In this document: positions 1,973 to 64,000 of the stretch, in pieces
How the letters are laid out: each line of letters starts with the position of its first letter
Position numbering within the stretch: the first letter of the stretch is position 1
Origin: Trebouxia sp. TZW2008
Lineage: Eukaryota; Chlorophyta; Trebouxiophyceae; Trebouxiales; Trebouxiaceae
Length of the DNA stretch: 64,000 nt
Reading direction: 5' to 3'
NCBI GenBank assembly: GCA_002118135.1
Contig: BDIU01000161.1
Span: forward strand, 1 to 64,000
Program-made: the position numbers and the translations under genes
The notes under the pieces: model-generated
Seen by the model: only the letters and a program-made list of their open reading frames with translations
Databases searched by the model: none
Told to the model about the DNA's origin: nothing

Positions 1973-4900
1973 TCAAGCTGACGCCTGTTTGGCTTGACTA
2001 GGGCATGCATCACAGACTCTGCTGGACCAGTTCTTCTGCTGCATCACTTGGTACAAGGAGCCTGCGACTTCAGAGGCTGATGGTCTGGCTTCAGGCTTTG
2101 AGCGCAGGCATGAGTGAATGACTCTGTGCAGCTCCTTCCCTACTGCTGTCTTGCAGAGGTTTTCAGGGAACTTCACCTGCAGGCCAATAGCATGCGTTCA
2201 GGGTCAATGATATGCTGGAGTTTGCTGCTTACATTCTGTAACAATGACATCTACGGAATCACTGCAGTTTTTAGTGTCTTTGTAAGCTGAACATGCAGGC
2301 TGCTTTAGCGCACATCCTCAGATCTACTCAGTAGCTCACGCATCATATCGCTTGCACAACATGTCAGAGGACCATGTCAGAAACATGCATGCATGCTTCA
2401 CAGTGATGGGTCAAGATGGCTGATAGAGGCGGTCACAGCAGCTTTTCACCTGATCAGCATAATCTGTCTGGCTGGTCAGACAGTCCCTGAGGTACTCAAG
2501 ATGCTTGCGCTGGGCAGGCGCCTTGGTGGCTCTGACTGTGCTGTTGACGTCACTGTCATACGCAGCGCTATCCTGCAGCACTACTTGGGCTGCTGGCATC
2601 TCTCCCCCTGTCGCGTCAAGCATGATCTGACCCAACTGCCAGATGTCTGAGCTGTATTGGGGGTGGTACCAGTCATTCTTCAGAAGGCTTTCAGCCATCT
2701 CAGGGGACTCATAATCCACGCAGGCCCTGCACAGCTTTCTGGATCAGCAATTGCAACAAATAAGGGAAGTCATGCATTGCAACGAGACAACTCTACCAGG
2801 ACTGGGTCAGGATAGCAGTATAAGGAAGCATCTTGTGCTGCTTGACATGATGTGCTCTTAGATGCATTTGCCTCAGTGCAACATACCACTAGCGCACAAT
2901 GAAGCAGACAGGGTCACTCACATGCTGTACTTGATCAGTGTGCAACATGACCAAGACACCACGGAGCAAATCAGGGCACTCACATGCTGTACTTGATCTT
3001 GTTTGGGCGCCCCTCAACCTGAACCTCAACAGCGTTACCGAGGTCAATCTTGACCCAGGCTGAGCCATCCAGGTTTTGCAACACGTTCTGAGCATGGATG
3101 TCCTGGTCGACCATGCCCTTGCTGTGGATGTATGCCAGGCCTGATGCCAGGCCCTGGAACCCCACTACCAGCTCCCTCTTGTACATCCTGCAAGTCCAGT
3201 TGATGTCAAACAATGAATCAGCGGGCTAGACTGACATTGTGAGCCTTGCAAGTATGAGCATGAAAGCCCAGTCCAGGTCATGTCGTAGCCCAAGCCATCA
3301 AGCTGAACTCACTTTGTTTGAGCCTAAGCCATCTGTGCATGGAAGCAAAGCATCAAACTTACAGCTGATATGTGGTACTGGAGGATGCATGCGCCTGTAA
3401 TCAGCCCGCATGATGACACAGATCTGCTGGTGATGTACTGGTGCAATCAGGCTTTCTGCATGCGTGTGCTACTGATGCTACCATTGACCTCATGACATGC
3501 AAAGAGTGATGCAGGCATGAAACGACAGCAGCTCTACCAATCCCTTGAATTATGCAAGCAACGCATCCAGGGTTGATTGACCTCACAAATTGCCTGCCCA
3601 CGCTGAGATAAGTCTGCTGCAAATGCACCATGCAAGCAATGCGACCAGGGTCAGGTAGACTCAAACCTTCCCTGCTCAGGCTGACACAAATCTTTGGCTG
3701 AAACACCATGCAAGAAATGCAACCAGGGTCAATGACACTCACGCTTTGCCTGCCCATGCTGACATCTGACGCACTATGCAGCGAATGCCGTTGGGTTTGT
3801 TCAGACTCACATTTTGCCTCCATCTAGCATGGCCTGCAAGGAGGGTCCCAGCTTTTCCACGGCCATGCAGCCAATGTGTTTACTGTCCTCGTCCTTGCTT
3901 TCCAGGAAAGCAAACACCTTCTCAACATTGGGATGGCTGAGCTGTGATAGGCGCTCAGCTTCTGCATACACCTTGTCGTAGTTGCCTTTCTTGAGTACCA
4001 CGTTGGGGTACAGCTGACTGTCCACGGCCCACACTGTGCCCATTGAGCCTGCTCCCAGCTTCTTGCCCATGACCCACTGGCTTGGGTCCTGCAAATGTCA
4101 ACAAAGCACATTGTCAGCCAGGCCGTTGTCAGCTTCACTGCACCAGTATGTGCATTTGTCAGCAAAGTAGTTGGCTTTGTTACATCAGTATACGCAAGGC
4201 AGAGTGAGCAAGTGATGCGCAAGGCAGAGCACAAACCTTCGTCAAATGCTACAACAATCCTTACTTGGTGTATGCTCATGTGTCACAGCCCACTGCACTG
4301 CTTGCTAGCATGCTAATCTTGGGACAAATGCGGCAGGATGAGCACAGATAAGCATGACACCTCATGATAGCCTGACTGGTATTACATTGATGCAAGCTTG
4401 AAGCACTTACCAGCTGTAGGTGCGGCAAAAGGCTCTTGGACCTTTCCAATTTGCGCTTCAGCTCCCAGTTTGACTTCTTGGCCCATGCAAGCTGCTCTTG
4501 TGCAACAGCCAGCTTGCTAGCCTCTGCGCTCATCTTCTGCTGCTGCTGCTGCTGGACATGAGATATCTCAGGGCTGTTGCACAGGGATGGAGCAGAGCCT
4601 CCAGGGCTGCTGCTCAAAGTGGAGGTTGACTCAGCACTAGTCATGACCTGCATTGCGCAGATGCAGTGTCAGACACTTGCTGCAGATAAGACAATGGGCC
4701 AATCAGCAGTTGCATACAGGTGTTGTACACAGCATGTCAGTGCGCAACAAGAGGAATGGCAGGAGCGAAAAATTGTGGATGACAGCGTGCAGAAAAAGAA
4801 AAGTCTACGCCGTTAGGCGTCATAGCGGGAGCCTCTGTCTAAAGAGGCAGCCCAGGAACAGCGTGCAAGTAAGCATTGAGAGGACGGCAGGGCTTGCAAA

Positions 4901-13679: not shown

Positions 13680-13789
13680 GCTTGCGCTAACAAACTCTCT
13701 ATCCAGGATACGCTACGCAGACAGCATCTGATCAAAGATGTTGCAACGTTTGCAAGTTGGTCAAACACAGTGGCTGTGTCACTCCGTCA

Positions 13790-22700: not shown

Positions 22701-23805
22701 ATACTGCCAAAGCATGCATCATCTGCAATGGCAGTCTTGTTGACAGTCTCGCAAAGCAGCAAATTTGCAATGATTGGGATTTTGGCCATTTTCATGTTGA
22801 CCTCACGTCTGAGTCCATATCTGGGTCCATGCTGAGTGCCTTTTGCATGACCTCTTTAGTCCATAGTGTTCTTTCTACCATCTGCTATTCATGCTGACGC
22901 TTGCATGGCAGGTAGTGGGACACACCATACAAGAGCAGGGCATCAACAGCGCATATTCATGTGCGTTGGATTGTTTCAACTATCTTTGCCATCTGCTGTT
23001 CATGTCAATGCTTGCATTGCAGGTAGTTGGACACACCATACAAGAGCAGGGCATCAACAGCGCATGTGCTGAGCGCGTATTCCGCATAGACGTTGGCTTG
23101 TCCAAGGGCTGTGGCAATGGAGAGCCTGAGGTATGCTGTGACCAAAACGCCATCATCATATTGCATCATTTGCTCTCGTCATCTGGTCCATCATGCTGTG
23201 GCAATGAAGGCTGCTGTGACAGACGCACTGTCATTCTCTTACGTCATCTGCTCATGCCACTGATTGCGTCATGCCGTGCTTTTCTTGTGCCCCAGCTTTT
23301 TGTGATCGGCACATCTTCAGGGATCGCTTCTTGAGCTTCCTATGGTGTTGCGCGGCACTGTCAGGTTTTTGGCTGTCATGCTGCGTCTGCTTGTCATTGC
23401 TTGTGACAAGGCTATCTGTGTTGCGAAGCGTACGGCAAGCAAGACTCCGTGATTCACTTGTTCAGTTTGCACAGTAAAGCTTCTCTAGACAAAGCAGTCT
23501 GTCCTGAGGTATCGGAAATACTCAGTGCGTCCATTATCAGGAAGTAACGCCTTGTCAAGCCAACAACATGCAAGATGTGTGCTGCCTTGAATGCACACGC
23601 TACTAGCTGTTGTGACAGTGTGTGCTGTGTTCAGGTATTGGAGATCTTGAATGACTCCACAATCAGGAGGTTGCATGAGCCAAGGGCATTGAATCAGGGT
23701 GAGCCAAAGGCCCCTGACACCCCCCAGGGGGAGAGCATTCAACCCCCTACTACCCACCCCTGGCCAAAAGAGCAGCAGCAGCAGCCGATTGCCGTGAAGG
23801 CATAA
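19775..23805 (+). CDS. SLP: Shewanella-like (SLP) protein phosphatase, 5' incomplete
   Basis: Seven exons give 334 residues: 19775-19930, 20433-20651, 21287-21347, 21708-21828, 22479-22647, 23023-23130, 23635-23805. The PPP-type metallophosphatase motifs appear in order: I-G-D-L-H-G-D, G-D-Q-L-D-R-G, L-N-G-N-H-E, F-V-H-G-G and V-V-G-H-T. The metal ligands expected of the fold are therefore present. Family signatures include R-W-T-G-G in exon 1, A-A-L-Q-P-G-G, Y-G-L-E-R-I-N, A-V-V-W-A-R-E-Y-S, and V-G-L-S-K-G-C-G-N-G. SLPs are bacterial-like phosphatases found in plants, algae and some other eukaryotes, usually in plastid, mitochondrion or cytosol; the location here cannot be predicted because the N terminus is missing. 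The segment between exons 2 and 3 is shorter than I expect, so a small exon may hide between 20652 and 21286. The tail after L-E-I-L-N-D is Pro/Gln-rich. Confidence 0.93.
22912..22954 (+). repeat. acceptor-side partial copy of SLP exon 23023-23130
   Basis: A second TTGCATGGCAG acceptor followed by 43 bases nearly identical to the first 43 bases of exon 23023-23130 (V-V-G-H-T-I-Q-E-Q-G-I-N-S-A) lies 111 bases upstream of it. The similarity extends into the flanking intron (about 22871-22910 against 22982-23020). The copy then runs into intron sequence and has no obvious donor. Confidence 0.93.
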
Positions 23806-39100: not shown

Positions 39101-42100
39101 TTAGAGCAGCCTTGGCTAAGCTAGTTGTCATACGTACCCAAAGATTGCATGCAAGTGTGAAATCTGAACCCTCCAGGTCATGCAACTAGAAAACTCAGGT
39201 GGCATGGACTGGGCGGGCAAAACGTACCATCATGCTTGCGCTTCTTCAGTCAGCAATGCCTATACTGCTCATAGGCCTCCTGCTGAAAGCTGTTCTGCTC
39301 CAGCAAAGGATCATTGACACAACACACAACGACAGCAGCAACGAATACCGGCAAGACATACAATGGCATTGGCGTCAGACACTGACAAGACATAGAAAGG
39401 CATGGCAGTAGACACTGACAAGAGATACGAAAAGCATGCTCACCAACATGCTTGCGCTCTTTCAGACAGCGGCGCCTGTATTGCTCATAGGCCTCCTGCT
39501 GGAAGCCATTCTGCTCCAGCAAGCGGTAGCTGGGGTGCTGCTTGCTGCTGGCTGAGGCTGCACTGCGTCCCATACTGCTGGCACCAGGAGAAGAAGACAG
39601 CACACCTGCACCGATGAAGTCAGTTAAGTGCAACAATAAAGGCAATTGGGTTGCACCGGTTGGGTCGACTGAGACTTTGCCATCATTCTGTGAGGTTGAC
39701 CCAATCAAAAAAATCGTCACAGAAGCGTCTGCCCATATAGTTGCCTTCAGCAAATGCACTATTTTGGGCAGATGATGTTGACCTGGTGCTGGCTGAGGCT
39801 GCACTGCGCCCATGCTGCTGGCACCAGGAGAAGAAGACGACACACCTGCACCGATCAAGTCAGCTGAGCCACTGCGACCATGCTGTAAGCTTATATGGGC
39901 AAATGAGCGACAAGTATCCAGCAGAAAGCTACAGAACTCAAGCTGAGTTGCTGGCTGCGAGAAATAGCACGCCTGCACCTACAAAGTTGGCTAAGTTACA
40001 TCAGTCACGTCATTTGGGCTGCTTTGGGCTGCTTGCTGGCCAACGCTGCACTGCGTACCATGCTGCAGGCTCCAGGAGAAGAAGACAGCACGCCTGCATT
40101 TACAAAGTCAGCTGACTTGCATCGGCCAATTGACCCACTTGGTGCAGCCAGATGAGCTGAGCCACTTCTTTGAAGCCAACTACAACACTTTCTCTAACAT
40201 GAGATAGACATGTGATGTGCTCTGAGGCATGCTGCTGGCCAATGGAGAAATCCAATTGGACGAGTACTGGCTACTCCAGACAGCAGAAAGACAAACAATA
40301 TGCAGAGGAACAGCTCGATTCAGATCAAAGCTTTTGCTACTTGAATGGCCCAGACATGACAAGGGAGGGTCCACAGCCACCGTACAGCATGGCGTTGGGT
40401 CCTGGTGTCAGCAGCAACAATAGCATGTACTGCAACAAGTGCGCTGTGCATGTGAATGCAAAGCAAGTCACAGTGTAAGTTGCCAATGGACCCTCTATCT
40501 TGCTGTGCACGAGATGCATTGGAACACCCATTGACAGCTTACGTCTGACTTGCTTGCGTTCATGCACCCAGCATACTAGTTAAAACACGATGGCATGCAC
40601 CCAGATTGAGAGGCCAATCTGCAAACGTGTTGTGGCCACAACAACATTCTCTGCCCTGCAGACACTTGGACTGCTTATCTCTCATTTGACAGCCAACGTG
40701 GACAATGTTTGCCATTGTATGCTAGATGCTTGAGAAAATTGGTATCATAGGAAATGCTAGGTGCCATTTGCCAGAGCAAACACCAGCTTGACCTCTCATG
40801 CAAACCATATTTGAGCCATGAAAGCAACAGCTAGGCCATTGAACCGTACACGCCAAGCAGCTATGCGTAGGGCACAGGTTACGTAGATTATGCAGCTGAG
40901 GTTGGCTTGATGTGCTTTCAGCACGCACCACAAAATCTCCTTTGATGCTGTTCAAAGCGCGACGTGATGATTCAGCTTGAAGCTGACAAACAGACAGCGA
41001 CACAGGCGTTATGCCAATATGTGCTGTGCGCCCATCAATGCTGTATGCAACCCATTGTTATGTATCATCAGCAGACCAGACTGTGTGTCATACAGACAAG
41101 ACCATGTATCATCAACAGACCAGACCGGACTGTAAATTTGATTGATTAATTGATTGATTGATTGATTGATCAATCGATCGCTTGCTGTATGGAGTTCTAA
41201 GAAGAGTCCTCAGCCCATCAGGTATGCCCCAAGCAGCCCAGCAGAGACAGAAAGTGTCAGTTGACCAAAGCCAGATCCTTCCTAAACTCCAACAAGAGGT
41301 TGTACATGCCCCTGCTCACGTTGCTGACGCAAAAGTGCTGATGCAATGTGGCAGATCCTTGAAAGAATCGCAGGAGCATCTTTGCAGACAGAGTAGGTTT
41401 GCCCGCTATTGAACGTTCCAATGTTTTCGGCCAATTTGCTCCAGTTTGCAGCAGGACTAGCTGTGTGATGGTTTCATTGACTGAGGCCAGTCATTTTGCT
41501 CCAGTTTGCAGCAGGACTAGCTGTGTAATGATGCCATTGACTGGGGCGAGAATCATTGATGGAGTCAAATTACTAGCGTCACTTCCTGTGGTGCCTGTCA
41601 AATGTCTGCATCAATCAAGCTGATTTGGGTTCCCACTGAGATGCGCAATGCATAAGGATATACCTGAAGTGGTGGCGTCTCTGTGGGATGCAAAGCTACT
41701 GCTGGTGCTGGTGGGGGAAGTGCCCATCAAGCCGTTGGGCGGGCTGCTGCCCAACAGCCATCCCACTGAGTTGCCAGGAGGGCTGCTGCCATGCAATGCT
41801 CCAGCATTCCTGCAAAAGATGGCAAGATCATTGTGGCGTTGCATAGGCATGAGCAATCACAGCTTTTCGATAGGGCACACATAGTGATGAGGCCTTGCTA
41901 GAAGGGGAAGTGCCCATCAAGCTGTTGGGCGGGCTGCTGCCTAACAGCCACCCCACTGAATTACCGAAGGGGCTGCTGCCATGCAATGCTCCAGCACTCC
42001 TGCAAGTTGCAACACAGACATCAAGGCATTGCTCAGACATGAGCAAAGCTACTTTTGCAATAAGGCACACATAATGATGCGATGATGCAGTGAGGCAAAA

Positions 42101-45100
42101 CGCCCATCAAGCCATGAAAAGGACTGCTGCCCAACAGCCACCCCACTGAGTTACCAGGGGGGCTGCTGCCATGCGACGCGCCAGCATTCCTGCCAAATCC
42201 AGTGCAAAATGTCTGTGTTGCAGAAACGCAGATTTAAGAATCAGATATACAAGGAGATGTAGGGACCACTGTTGCACTGGTACTTCTGAAAAGGACAACT
42301 TGATGAAAGGACAACTTTCTTGGGCACAGACGCCTGCTGGTGGTGGAAAATGCTGTACGTGTTGCAGCTGCTGAGCCCATGCAGCAAGTCAGGCTGGTGG
42401 CAAAAAGCAAGTAAACCAGCAGCTGTCTCGTTGGTGACACCAAAAGAAGTGGGCTGACTAGGTTCATGCAATCATGAGATCAAGTGGCTGAAAATACAAC
42501 ACCTACTGCAGCCCCTTGCTTCTGTGCTGTGGAGCAAGCTGGCATTTTACAACAAATGGTATGACATCACAAAGAGACGGACCTGTTGCGACCCCTTGAG
42601 CCCATGCTGCGGGGGAGGCTGGCAGGGTAGATCTGGGCTCCCTTGGGGGCCTTAGGGGGCCGCCGGCTGCCCTGACCCTTCTTATCCTGCAAACAGTCTA
42701 TTTTGAGAACAAAGATGTCGAGACAATGAACAAGCCTGCTATTACCCTGCTGATAGATTGGCCACACAAAGTCATGGCTTTCATCATCAAATTGCAAGTA
42801 AGGGTTGATGGTTTCCCCTCAAGCGCAGCATTCCAACACTTGTTGCATGACGCAGCTGCAAGCTGTCATCCAGCTCTGTGGTCATCCGCATGCAAGTGTA
42901 CAAGAAACTATGCCCAAGCTGACATATGCAGATGTGCTCACAGCACTCAGCTGCAAGCTGCTGTGGGACTCAAGATCAGACATGCTCTATGAGTGCTTGA
43001 GCTATCACAGGGACACCAAGATCCCATGGCTGGCTGACTGACGAGTCACGGTAGTCTGTGTCCTCTGATGGCTCAAGCACTTGCACAGCATGCCCAGTCT
43101 CACCTGAGGTGCTGGTGCACAGAACCACTGACTACAGCATACCGATAGAGGACCACACGCTTTCATCAGCTGTCATGAGCAGTACTCACTACAGCTTGAG
43201 GTCAAGGCAAAAGTAGATTGCATAAGGCTGTGACTGGATGCTGTACTTTGGTGGCTTGGAAAGAAAAGACTGCAACGTGGCTGTACTGAGTCACAGGCCA
43301 ACACAGATTGCATTGATCAGGAAGTCGAGAAGTGATCAATGCAAACTGTGTGTATTCTGTCCTTCTATAAATTCGCGCAAGTCAAGGCGACGCAAGGCAG
43401 CCTGGGATGAGATTGTGTTTGCCCTCCAAAACAGCAAAACTGCTCACATGCTTGATACTTGCTCAGATAGATTGCGCATCTTGTACAGTCTGCTGTCAAC
43501 AAGTGGTACATGCAGTGAAGTGCTGTGCCGTACCTGCTCAAAGTTGTGCACACTTGCATGAAGCAGTGCATGCAGACAAAAAGATGAGCACACCCCATCA
43601 AATAATTCAGCACACCTCGTCAAACTGGCGGAGACTTTCAGTGAGGGCTGAGCCAACATGCTGTCCATAATGAGACCTGCCATCCATGCCATTCTTGCGT
43701 GACGGCGTCAGCACAATCAGCTTGGCGAGGTCTCTGTCAGCCATCTCGGCATCATGCCTTGCAACAGCTTCTGCTGCTGACGCCTTGCGCTGATCCTGAT
43801 CCTGCATAGTCACAAATGGTGCTTGTAGCAGTTGTGAAGTACTCCACAAGAGAGTCGTCAATGTCCAACTTTTCTCTTCAAGAAGCCGTCAGTATAAGCA
43901 AAGCTGGCTCCTTGACGCAACTTGCTAGCCTGATAAGTGTCAAACAGCACTGCTTTGCTATGTTGCTGCAAGGCAGCATGTCGAACGATATTGTGTCGCA
44001 CCAGCTTGAGTGTGTAACGCACAACAAATGCATGAGTGAGCAAGCAGCGCTTCTTACTGCAACATGGAAACGGCCTGAAGGTGCATACCCAAAGCAACAC
44101 AGATGCATACAGGGAGCAAACACCCCTCCTGCCAGTGCATGTAGGTATCACTGCCGCAGTCGCTCACAGTGTATATTGATGGTGCTTACCTCATCCATCT
44201 CAAACACGTCCTCGTCATGCTCTTCTTCATGTGCATCAGCAAGCTTGCCGTGCTGCTCAGGCTGACCCCCCTGCGCAGCCCCCCCTGCCGGGCTGGGGCT
44301 GCTGCCAGGATGGCTTGCGCTGCGATCCTGCTTGCTATTGCTTGGCGTCGACGGCGCTGCGTCTGCCGCACCAGCTTCCTGTGTACCTGCTGCTGACTGA
44401 TCCCCTTTGTCACTGCTGGTCACAGCATCAGCCTGAGATACAGTTGCCTCATTGCTGGTGCCTTCACTGCTTTGAGCTTGAGAACTTTGAGCAGTCTCAG
44501 CTCCTGATGGGCCTCTGACTGAGTTGCCTGTGCTGGTCTGATCCATGTCAGCATTGGATGTGACTGATCCAGCAGCAGCAGCATCTGTGAGGCTGGTAGT
44601 TGCAGCGCCTTGCTGCTGTTGAGTGACTATGCGCATGATGTTGCTGCTGGTGTTGCCAGGCATGTGGGGCAGGGCATGTGCGGAAGCGTCCCGCTGCCCT
44701 TCAGGCAGAATCCATTGCTGGTAAGCCTGCCTTGGTCTGATGAACAGATTGTCCCCAGACAACTCCACTGTGGTTGAGTCAGCCAAGGCCTCCATGATCA
44801 TTGCCAAATCAGGCGTCAGCATCCTGACTCTGTTGAAGCTGGCAATGACGTGCAGTGCAATCCAGCCTTCACCGTTCATCTTGCTGCGCAAGAAGACGTC
44901 TTTCACCAGGTTTGCGATGCTGAAGTAGTACTCAATTTGCTGCCGGACCGCCAACAACAGCTGCTCCTGTGAGATGACGGGCAGCCCAGGTACTGCTGCT
45001 GGGATGCCGAATGCTGACGGTGGATAATACACAGAGGCCATTGGGTAATACACCTGCTGCTGAGTCATGCCCTGTGCTGGCATGCCCTGATACTGCTGTT

Positions 45101-47536
45101 GCTGCTGCTGCCTGTAACCAGAAGCAACACCACGCCCCCCTCGACCTCTCCTAGACCCATCACCACGCCCCCCAGACGCCCCTTGAGCTGCAGGCTGGTT
45201 GAGAAAATGACCCTCATACCCACGGCCTTGTCTTTGACCCCCCCGACCCGCAGACCTACCCCCTCTCTGACCCCTATCCAACCCCGTGTTTGCTGCTGTG
45301 CTCCTGTCAGCTGGCAAAGGCCTAGCAGACGGATTTGCTTGTCTGCCTACATTGGCAGAGCCAGAGGCTGTGGGTATTGCCTGTTCAGGCACTGGACCTG
45401 CTTCACTGACTGATGTAACTGACTGACTTGCAATGGCATTTTGGGTGTTGGCATCCTGAGCGCTGCTGGTTTCAGCAGGGTATGATACCAGGGGTAGTGG
45501 CACAGCTTTCACTCGTGGCGGCTGGCGTCTGGGTGCAGCAGCTGTGCTAGACTGAGGCCGCGCAGTGCTCACAACTTTGTTTGGTGCAAGACCAACCTGC
45601 ATGCATCAGACACAGGCATGTCAGCAAGGCTGCTAGAGTGAGTCTCACCAGTGCTCAGGTTGCGCTGCGATGCTGTGTGCAGACTGCAGCGCATAAGTAT
45701 CTGCTGGCAGCCTGTCTGACAGCGCTGTATGTACATGTAAGCAAAGACCCATGTGCTGATATGACGGCGACAGCTTGCACTGCCAGACTTGCCGTACAAC
45801 CAGTGGTGCAGCATCAGATATTCCACAATCATGTGAATTGTTCACGCCCGATGCATGCCTTTTGTGTTGCAGACAGATTGATACAGGACAGCTAAAAGTC
45901 CATATTTGTGCATCCCCCTTACATAAGTTAAATTGAGGATTGGTATACCTGTCTGCATGGCTTTTTGGTACATCGAACCTCAATTTAACTTACATGGGGT
46001 CAATGCTCAAACCTGAATAGTTAGCTGTCCTGTATTGAAGGAAGACAGGCATAAGACAGTGCATGAGCAATGCTTTTGTGCTTCAGCATAGTTTGTCAGT
46101 GTCTCACCTGACCAGCAGAATCAGACCTCACAACAGGCCCAGCTATAGGCTTCTTGGGCACCTTCTGCTCCTTTGCATCCCTCAGTGAGGGCCAGACAGA
46201 GGGTGACCCTTCTGATGCAGCAGCAGAGGCTGCTCCTGATGCCGTAGGCTGCAGATTACATTAGATGGCAAGTGAGCACACGGCGTGTTGCTGCCTAAGC
46301 ATGCCAACTGAGAATTGCCAGTACATGCCAACTGAGAATTGTGATTACAATCAGCAATGAATGGCTGCTCCTGATGCTGACAGCTGCACCACGTACGTGT
46401 CACTGAGAAAATTCTGTGTTCTGTCAAGTTACGCCAAGTGAAGGCGTGGGTACAACTCTACAATGAGCAAATGCTCCTGATGCTGACAGCTGCAGCTTGG
46501 AAATGCAAGTGAGCGTATGGTGTGTTACTGCGAAGGTATCCCTACTAAGGGGTGTGTGCATGTCAGCAATGCATGAACGTTCCTGATGCTGATGGCTGCA
46601 GCATACATATCAAAGTGAGCACAAGCTATCAAAATGTCCATGTATGCCAATTGAGAACTGTGCATACAACTTGAAGATCAATGAATGCAGGTCTGAGCTT
46701 GTGCATGCAACTTAGCAGTCAATGCATGCAAGCCTGAGCTTGCAAAGGGATTACCTTGTTCCAGGCCATCTTGACTGGCTTGGGCGACTCAGCCTGCAGC
46801 ATGCAAAACCATTGCTGAAAGTTGAGTGATGGCTCCAGCAGTTGTTTGCACTGGTTTGGGCTGAAAGCCTGGCATGTTCAGGCACAGCAAGTTCAAAAAA
46901 GCACCTCTGGTTCAGTAGCCCTGCTGGTAGAGGGGTCTGAAGGAGCAGTATCCTCCCGAGACTTGTCTGCTGTGCTGGAAGATGAGTCACTGGGGGGAAC
47001 TGGAGACGTAGACGCTACAGGCGTCGATGGCGCATGCTTGTCGACCTCGCCAGGTTGACTTGAAGGAGACTGACGGTCTGTGCTGATTGACTGCGGTGGC
47101 TTCTTGCTGTCCGGCGTGCTCTGCCGCTGAGACGTGCCTGGCTGAGTATAAGAGGGCAGCGTGGTCTGCGAGTCCTGCTTGTTACTAGCTGCTGAGCCAT
47201 TGCTGGCTGCCTTCTGTGCTGCAGCTTTGCCTGGCTTGGTATTGGCATACTCCTTCTGTTTCGGCTCTGATCGGACAATGGCTGCCCAAGGAGACTTCAG
47301 AGGAGGTGCTTTTGAAGGGGAGCTTGCAGTACTCTGCAGCATGAACGAAACGACGATAGGTTGAACAAAGAGGTGATTGCCAGCTCAACTGCGTCATCAA
47401 AGCGATGCGAAGGTGTTCTCACCGATTTACTGCTGCTGACCTCTGGCTGTTGGGTAGTTGCAGGTGACTGTGCACTATTGTGTGTATTAGGCACAGCGCT
47501 GCTGCTGGTCTCCTCCTTAGCCTTGCTGTCCGCCAT
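36199..47536 (-). CDS. LARP1: LARP1, La-related translational regulator
   Basis: Fourteen exons give 1106 residues: 47423-47536, 46905-47333, 46755-46793, 46108-46248, 44190-45596, 43616-43801, 42583-42686, 41664-41809, 39444-39605, 38757-38910, 38202-38274, 37558-37647, 36750-36815, 36199-36408. The low-complexity N terminus includes K-M-A-W-N-K and an RGG-rich stretch (about 348-398). The La motif (about 449-541) has [14 protein letters not shown] and L-F-I-R-P-R. Then come [12 protein letters not shown], typical of plant LARP1, and the C-terminal DM15 region (about 880-1010: [44 protein letters not shown]). LARP1 binds cap and 5'TOP mRNAs through DM15 and links TOR signalling to ribosomal-protein mRNA translation and stability. 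The last exon is Ser-rich. The frame closes and all phases match; the join between 44190 and 43801 is the least certain. Confidence 0.95.
38614..38672 (-). repeat. donor-side partial copy of a LARP1 DM15 exon
   Basis: Located 84 bases past the donor of exon 38757-38910, this copy repeats its last 59 or so bases: [19 protein letters not shown] against [18 protein letters not shown], followed by a gtggtg donor-like site. The intron flank between is not obviously repeated. It encodes an almost complete but degraded DM15 end. Confidence 0.9.
39228..40110 (-). repeat. partial copies on both sides of LARP1 exon 39444-39605
   Basis: Downstream, 39228-39306 copies the exon's 3' half ([16 protein letters not shown]) with a gtacgt donor; an internal stop has appeared. 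Upstream, acceptor-side copies of the 5' half ([10 protein letters not shown]) lie at 39783-39845 and about 40035-40096, with a shorter trace near 39948-39980. The 39783-39845 copy has TGCAG before it and gtcaac after it, so it could act as a complete exon. Confidence 0.9.
41137..41172. repeat. (ATTG)n microsatellite in a LARP1 intron
   Basis: About eight tandem attg/gatt units with one interruption (attaattg). Next to it, around 41165-41180, the self-complementary gatcaatcgatc occurs. Near 41445-41475 and 41505-41525 a phrase around 'ttgctccagtttgcagcagg' is directly repeated at about 60 bases. Confidence 0.9.
41895..42189 (-). repeat. acceptor-side copies of LARP1 exon 41664-41809
   Basis: Two copies lie upstream of the exon in transcription order, at about 41895-41999 and 42101-42189. 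Both carry the exon's 5' two thirds ([19 protein letters not shown]); the second is shorter and shifted in frame. Period is about 190-200 bases. The copy at 41895-41999 keeps the acceptor and an open frame. Confidence 0.9.
45877..46037. repeat. 160-base imperfect inverted repeat (foldback element) in a LARP1 intron
   Basis: Left arm 45877-45949 and right arm 45967-46037 are reverse complements over about 70 bases, with the best-matching blocks 'taagttaaattgagg' and 'atacaggacagcta' and short mismatched bulges between. The loop is about 17 bases. A transcript of either strand would fold into a long hairpin. It may be a foldback MITE or a small-RNA precursor; no target duplication is clear to me. 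It lies in the intron between exons 46108-46248 and 44190-45596. Confidence 0.85.
46363..46602 (-). repeat. three acceptor-side copies of LARP1 exon 46108-46248
   Basis: Short pieces of the exon start (tcctgatgctgacagctgca on the plus strand, against tcctgatgccgtaggctgca in the true junction) recur at about 46363-46388, 46470-46496 and 46579-46602 with a period near 108 bases. Flanking intron sequence such as 'gtgagcacacggcgtgttgctg' is repeated too, in diverged form. All copies keep the acceptor. Confidence 0.85.
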
Positions 47537-48397: not shown

Positions 48398-51300
48398 CTA
48401 CAAACCACTAGCGGTACCATCTGCCAGCTGCATGTGAGGCTTAGGCAACTGCAGGGGAACCATGTTAGCAGGGATCTTGCCCAGGTCTGCATTGGGAGGC
48501 TGACTCAGGCTCTTCAGTCTGCCGAAGAGGTAGCCAAAGGACTCCTTGAACATGTTGCTGTGCAGCGCACCCTGGTTGTTGTCATCAGCCACACATCCTG
48601 AGCAAATCTGCCAAGCCCTGCACAAGCATACACCTCCTTGAGCGATGTTGCAAAGCTTGCTCGTCAGCGCAGTTTTAGGAACCTGCTTTCAAATCACTAT
48701 CTAAGTAACATCAACCCACATTGGACATTAGGTGCAGGATGTTTGTTAGCATGCTGGGCATGCTCAGATACCTCTGTCAGGCTAAGGTATGAAGGGCTGT
48801 TAGTTTAATGATGTGGGGCAGCAGGTCTGACAGCCAGGCAGGACATGTTGAGGAGCGACGCTTTCAGGACCAAACAAAGTGGTCCTGGTACTTCATGCTC
48901 ATCATGAGTTTGTTGAATGCATGTCCAAATGAGCGACAATGCAAAAGTAATGGTTGCTTCACCAGTGAGCTGCTTTGCAGCAATGCCCAACCCAGCGTGG
49001 CAAAGGTTGAGATGCAGCCCGCTGCTATATTGTCTGCATGCTGTCCAATGGCAACAGTGGAGGTATGTGTAGGGGCGCTGTCAGTAATGCCCTGCCATTG
49101 TCATACATACAATGATGAGGGGGTGGTGGGGGGAGGGGGGTTACCTGATGAGGGCCTAGTGAGCACTGTTGGCATGCTGAGTGCTTATTGACATAGATGC
49201 TGTGTGCATATCACACACACACACAAATAAGCCTGAGGGCATGCAGGAGGGCGCGGGGGGGGGGAGGGGTGGGGGCGAGGAGGGGGTCTGGTACCTGATG
49301 AGAGCCTGGTGGGCACTGTTGGCATGCTCTGGCGCCCCTTCTGCTGCTTCAGCCTGGTACGCCCGGCTCAACAGCAGCCACGCCTTGCCCACCTGTCACC
49401 AGCCACACCATCACTTGTTGAATCGCCTCTTTGGGTAGCAGCTGACTCAAATGTCACAATTGCCTCTGCTCTCATCACCACCACAAAATCTACAATTACT
49501 AATGTTTACAGGGGCAGAATCAGCAAAGTGCACCGTCTAGTCACTATGAAGCTACACCAAACATGCATAATGAAGATGTTGAGCACAAACACGGGCGATT
49601 GTATGTGAGCCCTTGACTTGTGACAATCTTTGGGAGCCCAGCTTTTCATAAAGTGGTTGAGGGAATTTGGAAAAGCCGATCAGGCAAGGACGTCTGTGCA
49701 AACACTACCCAATGCCAAGGCCATGCACATGCAATTTTCTGAAGCATTATTGTTACTGTAAGAATCTGATGTGACTCATGGGGTACGATTGTTTTCTATT
49801 GTACTGAGTATCACCTGGGGATGGCGGCTACCCAGCTGCTGCTCCAGGCGCCTGACACGCGTTTCCAGCTGCCCAACACTGATCATGCCCACACACTCAG
49901 GGCTGCACACCACCACAGACACATAATGAGCACAGATAGACCGGAGCACAGACAGATACAAACATGAACCTGTGCCACAAAGTTGTCAGATCTAGCTGTC
50001 TCACACTGATCATGCGGCTGCATCTTCTGACAGCGGACCTTTGCCACAGATATGTGATCACGCACTCATGTTCAAGGCTGCACACCAGCAAAGACAGACA
50101 CCAGCAAGTACCTTGGCCACAAATTTTTCAAAGTAGCTGCTTAACACGCTGAGCATGGCATCAATCTTAATTCGGTACATCACCAGTTGCAGACACAGAC
50201 AGGCATCATGGCACAGACCATTTCTAGGATCTACCTAATTGAGGTTTGAGCATTGGTCAGGCAAGCCGTACCTGACAGGTGCATGTGCATTGTTGATAGG
50301 AGAGCGCTGAGACAAGCCCAGATCATGGCTGGAAGTACGGGAGGCCTGCAGGGGCAGGTCCAGGGCTCTTGCCCTCAGCCCCAGCCTGGGGGTCCTCTGC
50401 TTGTAAGACAAGTCTGCCCCCTGCCATGCACAAAAGTTTACTTAGTTGGAGCTCGATCGAGACCTCATGACAAACAGAGTCAAATGTCAAGCCAATAAAG
50501 TTGAGGATTCTCTCAGTCACAGATAGTAAAGACAAAACTCAATGACGGAAAGGCGTCACCAGCGCCTCATGATACCATGGGCAATTTCTGAACACTGTAG
50601 GTTTGCATAGCCCATGCTGCTTGCCGGCAGCAGACCTTGAGTCTATGTGCTGATTGCTACTTTGCTGCGACAATAAGCCAGCTTGTTCAAGCAACAGGGA
50701 TGATGTTAGCGTTCAGAGTACAAGCCGCAAAGGATGGATAGTCAGGTAGGTGGGTGGGTGCGTGAGTGAGCGAGCGAGCAGTGAGTGCGCAAGCGATCAG
50801 GATGTCAGAAGTTCGTAGAGATGTAGCCAGGCGTGTGCACCGGCACAGGTCTCACCCTGGGCCTCAGGTCAAAGGCTACAGACTTGTCACGCTGACTGGG
50901 TGAGGGCTCCTGCCCCGCGGGCTTCCAGGCCTGGAATGCTCCTGAGCCTCTAGCGGTCCTAGGCTGCCTAGACTGAAACGACTGCTGCTGCTGCTGCTGG
51001 AGCAACAGCTGCTCGGCAGCTTCCTCTTCCTCTGCTGCCTGCATGACAGAGAAGGTACGTTCACACAATATGATCATAACAATAAACGGTTACATGTACC
51101 AGCACATGTGCTAGGTGTGTGAGGCCCAAGTCCTATCCCGCCAGGCTGGCTTGTACTGGGCATCTCAATTAGGACGGTCAATGTTCAGTATGTGAAAGTC
51201 AGACAAAACAATGTCGTTCCATATCTTCCTAGGCCGAACCGTGTAAATTCACACAATATACAAAAGCGATTGTTGTGAGTGCAAATTCCAGCAGCAGTTT

Positions 51301-54300: not shown

Positions 54301-56967
54301 CTTTCAAGCATGAGACTGCAAACGCTTCAAAAATAGCGGTCACAATTGTGTTACAAATGATTCGGGCTTTTGCAACAATTGCTGCATATGTCAACACATA
54401 AGCTAGGTGTGCATTGTCTCAGTCCTGTTGCTGGACCTCTGACACACAGCTTAATAGCTGTGACCTGATTAGCAGCTAGCTGATTAGCCATGCCTTCAGC
54501 CAAATGCCGGCAACTGTCTTTACATGACTACATCGAAACGTTGTCGCTACAAGGGGTTACTTTGCAGTGCAGAACACCGTTCCCACCTTTCTGGTCGTTA
54601 TACCAAGAATGACGTTATAATGGGTGTCGTTATAAAGAGAAATTACTGTACATGATCTCTGGAAAAAGCAAATCATCACGCAGGGTCAGCTTACCACTGA
54701 GGAGCAGGAGGGCTTTGTCGCTCAAGCTGCCCTGGTGGGCATTGCAGACTAAAAAGCTCTGAGGCAACAAAACAATGACGCAATTGCAGAAATAGCTGAC
54801 CACTGAAGAGCAGGGGGGTCCTTGTCATTGAAGCTTTGGTCAGGCTCCGCATTTGCACTCAACAACATAACTGGCAACAAGGTCAGCTAAACATGCCAAA
54901 ATCATCTTTGAGCTGTTCTGCTGCAGTGAAAGGACGTCGGTATTGGCTTACCGCTAAGGAGCAGCAGTGCTTTGTCGCTGAAGCTGCCTTGGCGGGCACT
55001 GCTGATGCGCTGTAGGGGAGGATAGGCCGGGGGGGACTCAGCCTCATAGTAGTCATCCCACTTGCTGTTGGTGGTCTCCTTGAAACGCCGCGGCCTGGGA
55101 GCTGCCTGCATAAGCATCAACCCTTCTTTCATCATCAGCATAATATACATCCTCTCTATGAAGATACAAGTTTGCTGCCAGGTACATACAGAAGCACTTT
55201 GATGGCTGTACCTGAAGTGAGAATCCTGTGGACATTGTGCTGTTGCTGGATAGGTCAGAAAGTGGTCTCCCTCTGACGATGCTTAGCGAGCAGCTGTGCA
55301 GGCACCTCTTTAGAACGTGGTAGGGTTTTGCATCACATGCCTTGACATGCATACCTACTGAGTCATATGCTTGCTAAAGATGCGAATGTAGCAGCTTACA
55401 GGTGAGGAGCATTCCCTGGTGGAGGACTGACCAGGCTTCTTGACTGAATCGGAGATATAGGTCGGATCGAAATATCCCACTGAAAGTATGAAAAGCCCAC
55501 AGACACATATGCGTTGTGTGCAAAAGTGGCAGCTGATAGGTGAGGAGCATTCCCTGGTGGAGGACTGGCCTGGCTTCTTGACTGAACTGGGGTCGTCGGT
55601 GGGATGATATTCTCCCACTAAACATATGAAGAGCCAAACAACAGGTATGCTTTGCTTGTCAACATGGCAGTTTGATGTATGAGCATACCCTGGTGGAGGA
55701 CTGGCGGGGCTTCTTGACTGAGGTGGGCTATTAAGTCATATTTTACCCCTCAAACCAGGACAAAAAGACCAACAGGGAAGCGTACCCTGGTGGAGGACTG
55801 GCAAGGCTTCTTGACCAAGGTGGGGTCATAGGTCAGGTCATATATGCCCCTAAAATCAGAACAAAAGTTCAAACAACAGAAAAGCATACCCTGGTCGAGG
55901 ACTGGCGGGGCTTCTTGACTGAGGTGGGGTCATAGGTGGGGTCGTCTGCCTCCTGGGCCTGGGGCAGGAAGCCCTCATCCTCCCACTCACGCAGCCCAAA
56001 CATGCCCTCCTGCAGACACACTCGCAGTAGTAGAGTCACAGACATGACTGCACAGAAGTAGACCCACAGCAGTAGAGTCATGCAGTACACACAGCGTGAC
56101 ACCAGATCCTCGCTTACTTCCAGCCAATTGCAACACCATTGACACATGTGCTGAATAGCATGCGCATCTGGTCAGCTTTGCATGGCTACACTGCATGTGC
56201 ATATCACAGCATGTGTACAAAGTCGCTTCTGCAGGCACTGCTAGAGTGTCAGGCTAGGGTGCAATACCTGCGGCCTTGTGAATACAGATGTGTGCAGCTT
56301 CCTCTTGACATCTGTATACAGTGCTGACGCCATGGTTGCATCAGGCGTCTTGCCTTGACAGTTTATCAACTCCATCTCCAGAGCCAGTCTGCATGCACCA
56401 CATACACCTCTGAGTCACAGCAGCATTGTGCAAAACTGTCTCCAACAAATGTGTTTTGGTGGCACGGCCATGTTTTGCTGTCACATGGACAGGCATGTAC
56501 ATACCAACATCAACATTGTACAGATATGGGTACAACAAAAGTTTCTTGTGACACAGCCATGCTTTGTTGCTGCAAGCATGTGTCCAAGTACATACTTGGT
56601 GATTTCCCCGGTAGTCATCAAACGCCTCTCACGCCGCAAGACTTCCACTGCTGCTGACTTGAAGATACCACCACCTCCAGCCAACGGCTTGACACCTGCT
56701 GCTAGACTTGTTTTGGATTCTCCCTGCAACAAGTGAACAGTCAGGCACTGCCACCAGGCATGTCTTGTGACACACAGGTTGAGCAGATTGTCGTGGCAAG
56801 AAAGCTGGTGTCTCAGTATGGTAACAAACATGAACGAAACACGATGCAATGCAGCGAGCATCAGATTTGGAAAGAGGGATAAGGAGCAATGCGGACTCAC
56901 CATGGCTGCATTTGCTGCACCCGTGTCTACAGCAGCAACCCGTGCTGCACCACGCCTCTGTGCACCC
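48398..56967 (-). CDS. HARE-HTH domain nuclear protein, 5' end unresolved
   Basis: Exons read as 56901-56967, 56596-56723, 56268-56388, 55890-56009, 55400-55479 (tentative), 55212-55272, 54952-55105, 54110-54285, 53284-53529, 52927-53064, 52070-52363, 50856-51038, 50339-50420 (phase unresolved), 49815-49902, 49295-49392, 48398-48617. The N-terminal part carries I-F-K-S-A-A-V-E-V-L-R-R, M-T-T-G-E-I-T, G-K-T-P-D-A-T-M-A-S-A-L-Y and F-G-L-R-E-W, the signature of the HARE-HTH winged-helix domain (ASXL, HB1, restriction enzymes), thought to read DNA or its modifications in chromatin proteins. The rest is low-complexity: acidic F-Y-D-E-D-F-E-G-E-E-E, Pro/Ser-rich and Gln-rich stretches. A short coiled coil (L-E-T-R-V-R-R-L-E-Q-Q-L) and a TPR-like helix pair lie near the C terminus. 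The orthologue is not recognised. The start codon must lie between 56968 and about 57110. Confidence 0.75.
49145..49180 (-). repeat. donor-side partial copy of HARE-gene exon 49295-49392
   Basis: The last 36 bases of the exon and its donor recur 150 bases downstream (ctgatgagggcctagtgagc against ctgatgagagcctggtgggc on the plus strand). The purine-rich g-tract around 49115-49140 also recurs near 49250-49288, so the repeat unit includes intron as well. Confidence 0.88.
54695..54850 (-). repeat. two donor-side copies of HARE-gene exon 54952-55105
   Basis: Copies at 54695-54748 and 54800-54850 repeat the exon's last 50 or so bases (S-D-K-A-L-L-L-L-S). The first keeps a gtaagc donor identical to that of the true exon. 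The second is more diverged (gtcagc). Spacing is about 105-150 bases. Confidence 0.88.
55400..55850 (-). repeat. four donor-side copies of HARE-gene exon 55890-56009
   Basis: The exon's 3' part (S-V-K-K-P-R-Q-S-S-T-R) recurs at about 55785-55850, 55686-55735, 55549-55620 and 55413-55470. The two nearest copies keep a donor (gtacgc, gtatgc). In the two farthest the donor has become gaatgc, and both have gained about 20 further shared bases. The last copy has a CTTTCAG acceptor before it and gtaagc after it, defining a possible exon at 55400-55479. Confidence 0.9.
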
Positions 56968-59634: not shown

Positions 59635-62600
59635 CTATAACACAAGCTTGTTTACAGCAGGCACAATGTCGTCCAGTCCCTTCACCTTGAGCAGCTCATA
59701 CAGTTGCCCTGCGATGCCCTGATACTTTGGCAACACTTCATCCAAGCGCTTCAGGCGGGCCATGATCTTCTCTGTCTGAGGAATCACCTGTAATGCATCG
59801 AATGATAATCTAATCAATACCAAGCACATCTCCATGTCTGACAGAAACAAATCAAAATTGCCTAAGTGGCTCAAGCTTCACAGACAGCACAACCCAGGTT
59901 GTTTGTCTGAGCGTCCAAGGCTATCTTTGCACATGTACCTGATCGGTTTTGGCCACTCCAAGGAGATCTAGCAGCTTCTCGACCACCTGCGTCTGCTCTG
60001 AATCTTCCATGTCTGTCGACTTGTGCGTAGCATCAGCTTTTGGTGAGGGACTTGCAGCCTGAGCCTGTGATTTGCCTTGTGCTGCTTGACCTGCAAGCAC
60101 AGTTGTTCAACACCTTGCAAATCACAGCAGTTTTCATCATTTGCATGCAGATGCATGGACATTTTCAGCTCAGGCAGATCGACTGCTCTCTGCACCGCAG
60201 CATCAAAGCCAGCAATGCTGAACAAAGCACCTGATGGCTTGCTTGCCACCCGTATCTCTACTTCTGGCCAGTTGCCATGAGCCTTTTTGTGCTTAGACTG
60301 TGGTTCTGCATTCTCTTTGCCCCTCTTTGCAGGATTGCTCAGATAGTCCTGTTGCAAGTCCAAAGCTTTGCCATGCCTGCAACACAGCCCCATAGTGCTC
60401 ATTCACTGAGGCAGTCTTGGCTTGAAGGCACAACAACTTGGTGAATGTTGCAGTTGAAGCTTGCACTCGACTTTCAAAACGCTGTGGATGTTTGTCCTTG
60501 GTCTCAATGCAGGCTATTTTCACAGCGGCACATTGTCACAGGTTTTGCCATCACAATTCAGCCAAAGTGTCTTGGTCACTACAAAGGGGAACGCTGGTCT
60601 GACAGCAGCGGATGTACTGACCACCGGCATTGTTGACTTCAATAAAGTGTAGCAGGGACATACTGGTTCAACACTGGACAAGTGCATGAGCAGCAGATAT
60701 GCTGACCTGTCCAAGAGGTGCCTGATGCGCTGCAAGCAGGCTGCAACAGTGCAGTCTGATGTCAGGCCCAACAGGTCTCCCAGAGACTTCTTGAAGTTGA
60801 CAACCTCTGTGTAGGCCACATACACCTGTGCAAGCACTATATCATGTCACCCCACATTTGCCGGACTTTGGACGTCACAAACGACAACTGAAGACACACA
60901 GCGCAGCACAGCTGCACTTGTATGTCAGGCCATTTTTCTAATAACAACGCTTGTGATGTTCAACAATACAGAAGAGCCTCTTGCTAATCCTGCTGGAGGC
61001 AAAACGTCACACATCTGCCTGGTCAAACAACTGCTAGATGCTTGGCAAGTGCAACAAAAGAAGGACATGACACTGACATAGGCCAGAGCTTTGCACCAAC
61101 TGGGCGGTGCTGACTGGAGTTGCATGGTGCATAGCATGCACCACCCCCTTGAGCCTTTTGTGAGTGGGCAAGCGGCAGTTATATATTGACCTGATTGAGG
61201 GTAGGCAGGACTCCTTCCAGCTTGGGACAGTCAAACAGATGCTCAAAGTGCGCTGACTGTCGACTGGCAGCAATGTGCAATAATAACAGGTGGTCACCTG
61301 GTTGAGGGTGGGTAGCACTCCTTCTAGCCTTGGGCAGTCAAAGAGATGCTGAAACTGCGCCACAATGCGGTGCAGCAGCACGTCAGGCTGTGCTGCCACA
61401 ACTCCTTCAGCAGCAGCTATGGTGTCGGCTGCAGCCAGGCTGTTGCGCTCATACTCCACCAAGTGGTGCACTGCTGGCACAAGCTCCTCTAGCCCAATCT
61501 GCATGCAGACATGCCTCAGCTTCAGACAGCTTTGCTTTTACTGCAGATGCTTCCAAGTCATCAACAGAGGCTGCGTTTGTCTGTTTATTGATGCGGTTTG
61601 TGACCAGCTTTGAATTATTCCTGCAGTGCTGGTCATGGTTACAGTTTGGCCAGCTTGGGAAGCACGCTACGTCAGACCCCAATTTGCATGTACAACGTGT
61701 GCTATTCTGGTGCCTCGCGCTTTAGGCACCTTGATGTGTAGCTTACATACCAAGGGATTGCTCTGCAAGAGTTTTGCACGCAGCATGCTGTGCATTGATG
61801 CTGCCATCATTCTGAAAGCCTATGCAGAGCAGAGCAGGCTGTACTCATACTGCACAGGCATCAGTATGTAACTGTTGTAGCAGCAGTGGTCTGCAGAGCC
61901 AAATGCACATCATGCAAAGGCAGAGACAGCATAATGCTTACGCCAGAGTTGTGCTACTGGCTGGCATGCAGCGTCATCTGCAAGAACAAGCCAACGGTGC
62001 ATCGAGACATTCAGGTGAAGCTGTCAACTGCAGCTGTCAGCAGGGCTCACATGCTCTGCTTTGGCTTGAGAGTGACCAGGACGGGTGTTGAGCAGATGCA
62101 GCACAGCCTGCTGGATGCGCTGAGCCTGGTCCAGCCCCCCCAGAGCCGTCACCCAGGCTTGAAGCACATCTGGCACTCTGGCAGGGTCTTGCTGCGAATG
62201 CTGCTCTGGCACAAACTTTTGCCCTTTGTGGTAGACTGCCTGTGTGAGATGCAGACAAGGTTGGCAGGCAGCTGTTCAGCAGCAAATCAGCGCTGATGAT
62301 AGTTGCAGTGGCAGTACAAGGCCACACAGCTTGGCAAATCTGATGAAGAATGCAAAAATGTGTAAGGACACCACAGCGAAAGACTATGAGCAAAGCTGAG
62401 TCACCTCACAGACTTCTCCGACAAAGCGCTCCAGGCGAGGCAGGCTGGCAATGACGCGAAGCAGCTTACTGACAGCAGCAGGCAGGCTGGTGGGGTCCGT
62501 CACCTCCAGGCTGATGCACACATCCTGCATGACTGTACAGGCTCATGGGGTGTACAAGGAATGCAATGCTGAGCCTGCACTTGAAAATATCTGGCTGACA

Positions 62601-64000
62601 CAGGCTGGCATTGACGCAAAGCACACCAGCAGGTGAGCTGGTGAGGTCTGTCACCTCCAGACTTACACACACACATCCTGCGGAAGGATACAGGCTTGTG
62701 ACAAGTTGTGCACTGCTGGGTTGTCAAGTCTTCAGAGTCAGATGCACTCTCGCTTTGCCCTATTTGTGATAGCAGAATGACAGCATAAAGACAGCATGTG
62801 AAACTGGAACAAAGATGCATTGCTTCTTCCTTGTGTTTAGCACATCAGAAAGCATGTGACCTGAACAAGGTCAATGAGCACATCTGTGGGGATGCGCTCC
62901 ACCAGGTTGAGCCCAAGGCGGTGTAGCTCCCGGTCGCGGCGCATGCGCTCACGGGTGGTCAGAGGTGCATTGCCCACTGCCTTGCTGCCCAGTTCTAGCT
63001 CGCCGCCTTCAGCAGCTGCTCCTGCCCTGCAGGGCAGTACAAGGCTGACATGTGTGGGCAAGTGCTTGCGTAGCTTATGCAGACAGCAGCCTGCATGGGG
63101 TCCAGCCAAATTTTGCTCTGAAGAACAGTAACATGGTCCTATCATCCTCACAACAAGGTGGCACAAATCAGACACTCAGAAGGTATGAGCAGGTGAAATC
63201 TCAGATTTTGGCGTGCTATATATCAGGCAGGCAAGCAAACAAGCAAGCAATGACTGTGTTGTTCAAGCAGACAGCAGAATCTACAAACTGGGCTGTTCAA
63301 TTCAGCTGAGCAGAGCTATGAAAAGATCAGCTGAGCGCAGCACTCAGGTAGCTGAGCAAACAAGTCAAGGTGCAGGACACACTCTGGTGCTTGAAGCTTG
63401 GCCTCATTGAGGCGGCGCTCCAGGATGTCCATTTGGCGCTGCAGGGACTTGTACTGCTTGGCGGTGGGGCGGGCGTCCAGCTCCAGAATGAGGGATGCGT
63501 TTTCTTCTGCCAGCACATCTGCCTTGTGCTCAGCCTGAGCCTGCCGTCTAGCTGTGCCCCTGCAGTCATATATACATGCTTGGCAGGGCGGAAGTGAGCT
63601 GCTGTTGATGCTACAGACAAGATGCTGCAATGCACATTGAAACTTAAGTTTGCGCTTGCCTTTGAGTTGGGCCCCTGCAGGTATAGCTTCTGTGAACCAT
63701 GCTTTCTTGCGTCTTTTGGATTCATGCTTGGCAGTGGGGCAGGCATGCAGCTCTAGAACAAGGAATACCTTCTCTTCTGCCAGCACATCTGCCTAGTGCT
63801 CAGCCTGAGCTTGCTATTGAGCTGTGCCCCAGCAGGCATCGTTTCTTGCGGCGTCAGATTTGGCGTGTGATACTGAGCAAATGCTGGTGCTGTAGGCAAG
63901 ATGCCGCAGTCACTATGTGTCTTGTGCCTTCATGTTCAGCTTCTGCAGACTAGACAGCAGACGAAGGCTGGCCTGACCTGGCAGCTTCAGCAGCAGAGGT
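59635..64000 (-). CDS. CEP70: CEP70-like centrosomal protein, 5' end beyond the window
   Basis: Ten exons lie in the window: 63978-64000 (cut by the edge), 63383-63559, 62861-63026, 62405-62524, 62051-62239, 61298-61498, 60707-60825, 60114-60376, 59939-60090, 59635-59787. The nine complete ones code for 512 residues in matching phase. A coiled-coil segment with L-E-L-D-A-R-P-T-A-K-Q-Y-K-S-L-Q-R-Q comes first. The C-terminal half has H-L-F-D-C-P-R-L-E-G-V-L-P-T-L-N-Q, and the protein ends with Y-E-L-L-K-V-K-G-L-D-D-I-V-P-A-V-N-K-L. This ending and the A-R-P-T element are characteristic of CEP70, a centrosome and basal-body protein. Assignment rests on remembered family motifs, not an alignment. 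A low-complexity Lys/Gln segment lies near the C terminus. Confidence 0.85.
61191..61252 (-). repeat. donor-side partial copy of CEP70 exon 61298-61498
   Basis: About 62 bases repeating the last codons of the exon lie 45 bases past its donor. They remain open and read H-L-F-D-C-P-K-L-E-G-V-L-P-T-L-N-Q, differing at one residue from the true exon, and are followed by a gtcaat donor-like site. It is the best-preserved copy in the window. Confidence 0.92.
62601..62677 (-). repeat. acceptor-side partial copy of CEP70 exon 62405-62524
   Basis: Upstream of the exon, 77 bases repeat its 5' part (D-V-C-V-S-L-E-V-T-D-L-T-S against D-V-C-I-S-L-E-V-T-D-P-T-S) after a CCGCAG acceptor. Separation is about 153 bases. 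Confidence 0.9.
63635..63829 (-). repeat. acceptor-side copies of CEP70 exon 63383-63559
   Basis: The segment 63727-63829 repeats the exon's 5' part (Q-A-Q-A-E-H, D-V-L-A-E-E) but has gained in-frame stops and a changed acceptor. A shorter copy of the acceptor and first codons lies at about 63640-63680. Both are upstream of the true exon in transcription order. Confidence 0.88.

Follow-up and report, generated by a model that had tools for sequence, protein, structure and literature searches.

Partial exon copies in Trebouxia introns: probable remnants of old, short tandem duplications

Short tandem duplication within genes is a known kind of process. Gao and Lynch in 2009 reportedly described internal gene duplication with the creation of introns, in which short segments within genes were duplicated in tandem, some of them across splice junctions. 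We have analysed a stretch of 64,000 nucleotides (the window; contig BDIU01000161.1) from the green lichen alga Trebouxia sp. TZW2008, in which introns carry copies of the ends of their own flanking exons. The Trebouxia duplications share with those of Gao and Lynch their short tandem nature, their location in genes and the crossing of junctions by some of them; they differ in that the copies are old remnants, are placed nearly at random and give no sign of new introns. Excerpts of published reports describe related cases. In potato RdRp, a tandem duplication over the intron–exon structure copied the acceptor, the branch site and part of the exon, and a second duplication of 83 bp is intronic; a new intron arose there, whereas the Trebouxia copies are spliced out with the old intron (PMC4974935). 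Faulty Okazaki-fragment processing of the rad27/FEN1 type produces tandem-duplication insertions between short direct repeats (PMC5677150), whose likeness to the Trebouxia copies is an analogy only, formation not having been witnessed in Trebouxia. The small segmental duplications of Drosophila, partly tandem and in one set shorter than 500 bp in 83.4% of cases, are polymorphic and mostly young, whereas those of Trebouxia are old (PMC6380325). What Trebouxia adds to this known process is old, near-randomly placed remnants of junctions. Among titles and abstract openings in the literature on intron gain by tandem duplication, none concerned partial exon copies in Trebouxia introns, which does not prove their absence; a word search of the main text only of two Trebouxia genome papers (PMC12712428, PMC11523091) gave no mention of tandem duplication, and a word search of an Asterochloris paper did not find the word 'tandem'.

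The initial annotation of the window had reported exon-end copies at about sixteen splice junctions (Table 1), and on this point it was correct. For every listed junction, the exon end was aligned to its own side of the intron and, as nulls, to 200 equally long stretches drawn at random from the window at distances of more than 5 kb; at 14 of the 16 the intronic copy outscores every null (0/200), and LARP1 exon 46108 (score 96, null 1/200) and kinase exon 3811 (score 78, null 2/200) complete the list. Junction copies in introns are confirmed. Those in the window are partial, comprising one exon end each, and several may stand at a single junction: four at HARE exon 55890, two at LARP1 exon 41664 and three at LARP1 exon 46108.

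The wider survey used a main sample of 264 kb, made up of the 64-kb window and 20 random 10-kb stretches of the Trebouxia assembly (a draft of 68.5 Mb in 527 contigs), and a second, separate sample of 50 kb. Gene models came from a hidden Markov model (HMM) trained solely on the window and the 20 stretches; it predicted 567 exons, of median length 118 nt, and introns of median length 262 nt, with the splice consensus CAG/GTAAG at donors and TGCAG/G at acceptors. Its exons in RRP3, LARP1 and HARE agree with homologues, and all but one of the 16 listed coordinates (39444 occurring twice in the list) fall on its exon boundaries; at the remaining one, CEP70 61298, the predicted exon runs on into the copy (61097-61498). 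We kept 386 of 550 predicted introns, leaving out those whose flanks were not two exons of 30 nt, those shorter than 60 nt and those containing N. At a score of at least 90, 20 introns held a copy of their donor-side exon end and 18 one of their acceptor-side exon end; length-matched introns from other stretches gave 1/1,151 per side, and a search of each intron with the reverse complement of its exon ends gave 0 and 2 of 386. This comparison bears the phenomenon out; the high frequency that it had claimed, with several copies at some junctions, stands out against these controls but has to be scaled down to 33 of 386 introns (8.5%) that contain a copied end of a neighbouring exon.

The junction copies are part of a broader pattern of local duplication. 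Banded self-alignment of the 264 kb (local pairs being defined by an offset of 20-1520 and a score of at least 125; pairs with N were left out) gave 227 direct pairs within 1.5 kb, compared with 4 at offsets of 4000-5500 and 20 local inverted pairs; BLAST below 1.5 kb gave 184 direct and 5 inverted ones. Local pairs cover 17.7% of bases, compared with 0.5% for the far control. Roughly every sixth base sampled falls in a detectable duplicate of this kind, which makes short duplication a strong shaping influence on the genes of this alga. Coverage is nearly the same in introns (17.3%), exons (18.7%) and intergenic DNA (17.4%). When the gene models were slid round each stretch, the pairs joining a junction to an intron numbered 63 against 64.2±6.6 under shifting at all offsets, 51 against 47.9±5.8 at offsets up to 500, and 51 against 45.0±5.7, again at offsets up to 500, in the one of these three tests on pairs from which the coiled-coil gene at 5.7-11.7 kb of the window was left out; clusters touching both an exon and an intron numbered 80 against 80.2±4.7. 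As the junction-copy counts match those of the shifted models, we conclude that the copies are placed about at random in a gene-dense, intron-rich genome, and the special tie to introns and junctions implied by the initial annotation is not borne out. Its caution that placement up- or downstream of the exon is no evidence of mechanism was right. Intron length shows no relation to duplicate coverage (rho -0.03, p 0.51), and the highest coverage, 0.31, belongs to the shortest fifth of introns, perhaps through false short introns in arrays. Introns had been suggested to grow by local duplication; the local duplication is real, but coverage is flat with intron length and, because only 4 of 138 pairs are less than 10% diverged, such growth is at best historical.

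We suggest that old, short direct tandem duplications, largely independent of gene structure, are the probable source, and that those crossing a junction left decaying exon-end copies in introns. Units mostly of 40-200 bp would have hit the genome mostly long ago, at positions largely independent of genes. Where a unit lay across an exon–intron junction, one copy of the junction would stay in use and the other would turn intronic; the intronic copy would then drift neutrally, its splice site persisting until removed by mutation, and further rounds, some nested within the first, would give the multi-copy arrays. Replication slippage or misjoined Okazaki-type flaps may be the cause, the direct orientation and short distance of the pairs pointing to one of these rather than to transposition. 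Local direct copies, their near-random placement, their age, the loss of frame and, in one gene, the skipping of the copy are directly supported by the data; an origin of the unit size in replication or nucleosomes we infer.

The age of the copies can be read from their decay, in counts that leave out pairs of period below 40. Most are 10-35% diverged and carry indels, and identity reaches at least 90% in only 4 of 138 pairs (no exon or one exonic copy, period at least 40, both samples), one of which is a long terminal repeat (LTR) pair. The mean Kimura two-parameter distance is 0.33-0.35; the transition/transversion ratio, 0.80-1.04, rules out repeat-induced C-to-T mutation as the reason for the few young copies. 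The number of pairs climbs with divergence until detection fails, which does not fit a constant rate; duplication was therefore probably stronger in the past, and assembly collapse of near-identical copies could hide only the youngest pairs. Differences by codon position (0.190, 0.177 and 0.272) and frameshifts in 29 of 62 copies fit the neutral copy of a constrained exon; stops number 22 in 1,402 codons. The claim that usable splice sites are retained holds in part: taking the two samples together, 24 of 31 donor copies still have their GT and 33 of 42 acceptor copies their AG, the background rates for GT and AG at other places in the exon part being 97/167 and 246/351, but in the array at HARE exon 55890 direct reading shows that two of the four copies keep GT and two read GA.

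Homologues allow the copies to be followed gene by gene. The RRP3/DDX47 helicase matches protein P0001 with 100% identity, those of Trebouxia sp. C0005, C0009 and C0010 with 95-96% and the next named alga with 84%. The contig of P0001, at 2.6 kb, is shorter than the 4.15-kb gene and is therefore mRNA-like; P0001 agrees with the exons and passes over the intronic copy, RRP3 being the sole gene with an mRNA-like protein. The pool of decoy or alternative sites foreseen in the initial annotation exists in the sense that copies of splice sites are left in introns, but the skipped RRP3 copy and the frameshifts speak against their use in alternative splicing. LARP1 exon 41659-41811 is 83-86% identical to four orthologues, its two copies 76-78% and 65-68%; the copied segment is single in three of the four orthologues, whereas in P0124 part of it finds a second, weak match. 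A genome search with the LARP1 array at 41920..42197, which scores the best candidates only, gave no match elsewhere. LARP1 orthologues also align through 39442-39711, where the exon is longer than in the model; because these alignments cross the modelled acceptor at 39557, exon 39444 has its true acceptor upstream of that point, and the acceptor-side copies of this exon were scored against the modelled boundary only. In HARE, orthologue P0211 is 92% identical to exon 54952 and 74% to its copy, and the Trebouxia orthologues P0211 and P0212 join exon 55890 directly to exon 54952 and have none of the array copies.

Local tandem duplication in repeated rounds, as had been proposed, is supported, its local nature by the direct orientation and short distance of the pairs. 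The adjacency of copies gives a mixed picture: at an identity of at least 0.78 and a period of 60-600, the ratio of length to period is at least 0.9 in 26 of 62 pairs, 0.6-0.9 in 11 and below 0.6 in 25. Among 33 spaced pairs at 78% identity or more, the gap holds a third copy in 15 and a nested repeat in 8, so that repeated rounds explain most, not all, of them. Three arrays were searched genome-wide and all three lacked a match elsewhere, the search scoring the best candidates only. Dispersed elements were rejected on this ground as a source of pairs, with the exception of the one LTR pair, and for the same three arrays we did not find an introner-like element, the same sequence in many introns.

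Unit lengths, counted once per cluster, fall steeply from 39 at 150-199 bp to 10 at 200-249 bp (p 4e-5, in bins set after seeing the data). In a set of 140 non-overlapping clusters, from which the LTR pair was left out, as it was from the length-by-class counts, they concentrate at this size outside the window: units of 140-199 bp make up 35/81, 14/24 and just 9/35 of the clusters in L009-L028, L029-L033 and the window, respectively; by identity, they make up 30/57 at 0.78 or more, 20/49 at 0.70-0.78 and 8/34 below; and by class the share is clear in one-exon pairs (33/62) and weak in intron-only pairs (9/40). Tandem Repeats Finder places 16 of 61 arrays at 140-199 bp and 3 at 200 bp or more. 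Two modes in the distribution are not significant (Silverman p 0.143, 0.127). Through this apparent drop beyond 200 bp, an origin linked to replication becomes open to testing. A more specific reading, in which past direct duplication worked in units the size of a nucleosome or Okazaki fragment (about 140-200 bp, with the steep fall beyond 200) and those bearing a junction were preferentially kept, leaving lasting second-choice splice sites in introns, seems to us rather unlikely.

Several observations weigh against the preferred reading of old, gene-independent duplication. The contrast between local and far pairs is weaker in the second 50-kb sample (37 and 6). Exon–exon pairs at all offsets number 99 against 83.2±8.3 under shifting, exon-only clusters 10 against 5.3±2.1 and pairs wholly within one exon 9 against 6.6±2.6, where purifying selection should deplete such pairs. 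This excess may come from false exon calls together with true repeated exons: several copies are called exons by the HMM (26826-26852 in RRP3, 55432-55617 in HARE and the read-through at 61097-61498), and such false exons inflate the class in which both copies are exonic. At 140-199 bp, one-exon pairs are in excess (29 against 20.8±3.5, P 0.013) and exon-free pairs in deficit (7 against 13.8±3.0, P 0.017), and at 200-700 bp there are 16 exon–exon pairs against 8.9 (P 0.002) and 4 one-exon pairs against 10.1 (P 0.011). The split by unit length and class was made after the fact, in 12 cells with uncorrected P, and only the exon–exon value survives correction; slower decay of exon-bearing copies, and hence longer detectability, should push the length-class excess the same way. 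Ten of the 33 spaced pairs have an unrelated gap (one is the LTR pair), and spaced pairs are sharp-edged, with flank scores equal to the control. Finally, GT and AG together are retained in 57 of 73 copies against 48.8 expected (p 0.028). A broader count, in which copies are not independent, goes the same way (GT 44/82 against 1,872/4,329, p 0.04; AG 61/81 against 3,844/6,728, p 0.0006). Retention slightly above background is suggestive only, and HMM exon calls may bias it.

This retention and the one-exon excess at 140-199 bp are what would be expected if duplication or its retention were tied to splice junctions, with the copies selected as decoys or alternative sites. We consider this unlikely, since junction copies are not enriched overall under shifting, frameshifts affect 29 of 62 copies, half of the HARE array lacks GT, the RRP3 copy is skipped and the unit-length bins were chosen afterwards. 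Tandem duplication of whole exons to give mutually exclusive ones would account for those copies that retain splice sites and frame, and coiled-coil exons are indeed repeated in the kinase-region gene; however, the copies in the window are partial, nearly half of the sampled copies are frameshifted, the two HARE orthologues lack the copies and the LARP1 segment is single in most orthologues, so that such an origin is very unlikely. That the introns themselves were born by tandem duplication of exon segments, the intron gain of Rogers type, would place exon-end copies in introns and follows a mechanism known elsewhere, as excerpts of PMC4974935 and PMC3443670 indicate. A junction-spanning alignment at an offset equal to the intron length (score at least 125) is present in 3 of 526 introns, no more often than at eight shifted offsets (1-17), and we regard this origin as highly improbable. 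Assembly error or collapsed haplotypes might be suspected in a draft of 527 contigs, but most copies show 10-35% divergence and indels, with just 4 of 138 pairs at 90% or more; haplotypes and mis-joins do not produce such divergence, and we give this explanation almost no credence.

Table 1. Copies of exon ends in introns of the window, with alignment scores and null counts
Feature	Position	Strand	Alignment
Kinase exon 2984, 3' end + donor, intronic copy	2909..2936	-	score 119, null 0/200
Kinase exon 3811, 78-bp array extending over about 11 nt of exon 3' end	3546..3821	-	self-alignment score 377; weak as exon copy, null 2/200
SLP exon 23023, upstream copy, acceptor + exon 5' part	22897..22965	+	score 270, null 0/200; 91% over 77 nt
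RRP3/DDX47 exon 26974, 3' end + donor copy	26811..26869	-	score 187, null 0/200; missing from mRNA-like protein P0001
RRP3 exon 28847-29077, acceptor + 5' part copy	29155..29195	-	score 95, null 0/200; AG lost
LARP1 exon 38757, 3' end + donor copy	38600..38676	-	score 202, null 0/200
LARP1 exon 39444, 3' end + donor copy	39226..39306	-	score 297, null 0/200; 35-bp array fills gap to exon (nested)
LARP1 exon 39444, 5' part, two copies	39774-39811, 40015-40060	-	scores 124, 110; best null 0/200
LARP1 exon 41664-41809, acceptor + 5' part, two copies	41920..42197	-	scores 340, 314; best null 0/200
LARP1 exon 46108-46248, acceptor + 5' part, three short copies	46363..46608	-	best score 96, null 1/200
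HARE exon 49295, 3' end + donor copy	49133..49178	-	score 170, null 0/200
HARE exon 54952, 3' end + donor, two copies	54689..54859	-	scores 219, 110; best null 0/200
HARE exon 55890, 3' end + donor, four-copy array	55404..55843	-	scores 195-257; best null 0/200
CEP70 exon 61298, 3' end + donor copy	61187..61253	-	score 227, null 0/200
CEP70 exon 62405-62524, acceptor + 5' part copy	62605..62692	-	score 200, null 0/200
CEP70 exon 63383-63559, acceptor + 5' part, two copies	63645..63839	-	scores 315, 97; best null 0/200

The names kinase, SLP and CEP70 are labels of the initial annotation; those of LARP1 and HARE are supported by Pfam domains of the homologue matches, and one protein we take to be RPS4. 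The copies mislead gene finders, as our own HMM demonstrates. This model also missed the last RRP3 exon and predicted, for LARP1 exon 39444, an acceptor that lies inside the true exon; the true last exon of RRP3, located with P0001, is 25462-25578.

Other repeats are present in the window. The kinase-region gene (5700-11700) has about ten repeated coiled-coil exons at a spacing of 210-654 bp, entire duplicated exons that are retained in the predicted protein, and a 25-bp minisatellite occupies 15733-15972. At 31935-32295 lies a small LTR-type retroelement of 361 bp, whose two terminal repeats (65 bp each, TGTAAC...GTTACA) show a single difference from each other; the second is preceded by a purine-rich tract, and AAGAG stands on either side of the element. 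The HMM exon inside this element is probably wrong. Its terminal repeat has at least 41 matches in the genome, the two of the window included, and at least six other contigs carry pairs of it 200-330 bp apart. Over the window (1-64000) CpG stands at 0.39 of expectation and TG and CA at 1.6, as if CpG had been methylated and then lost.

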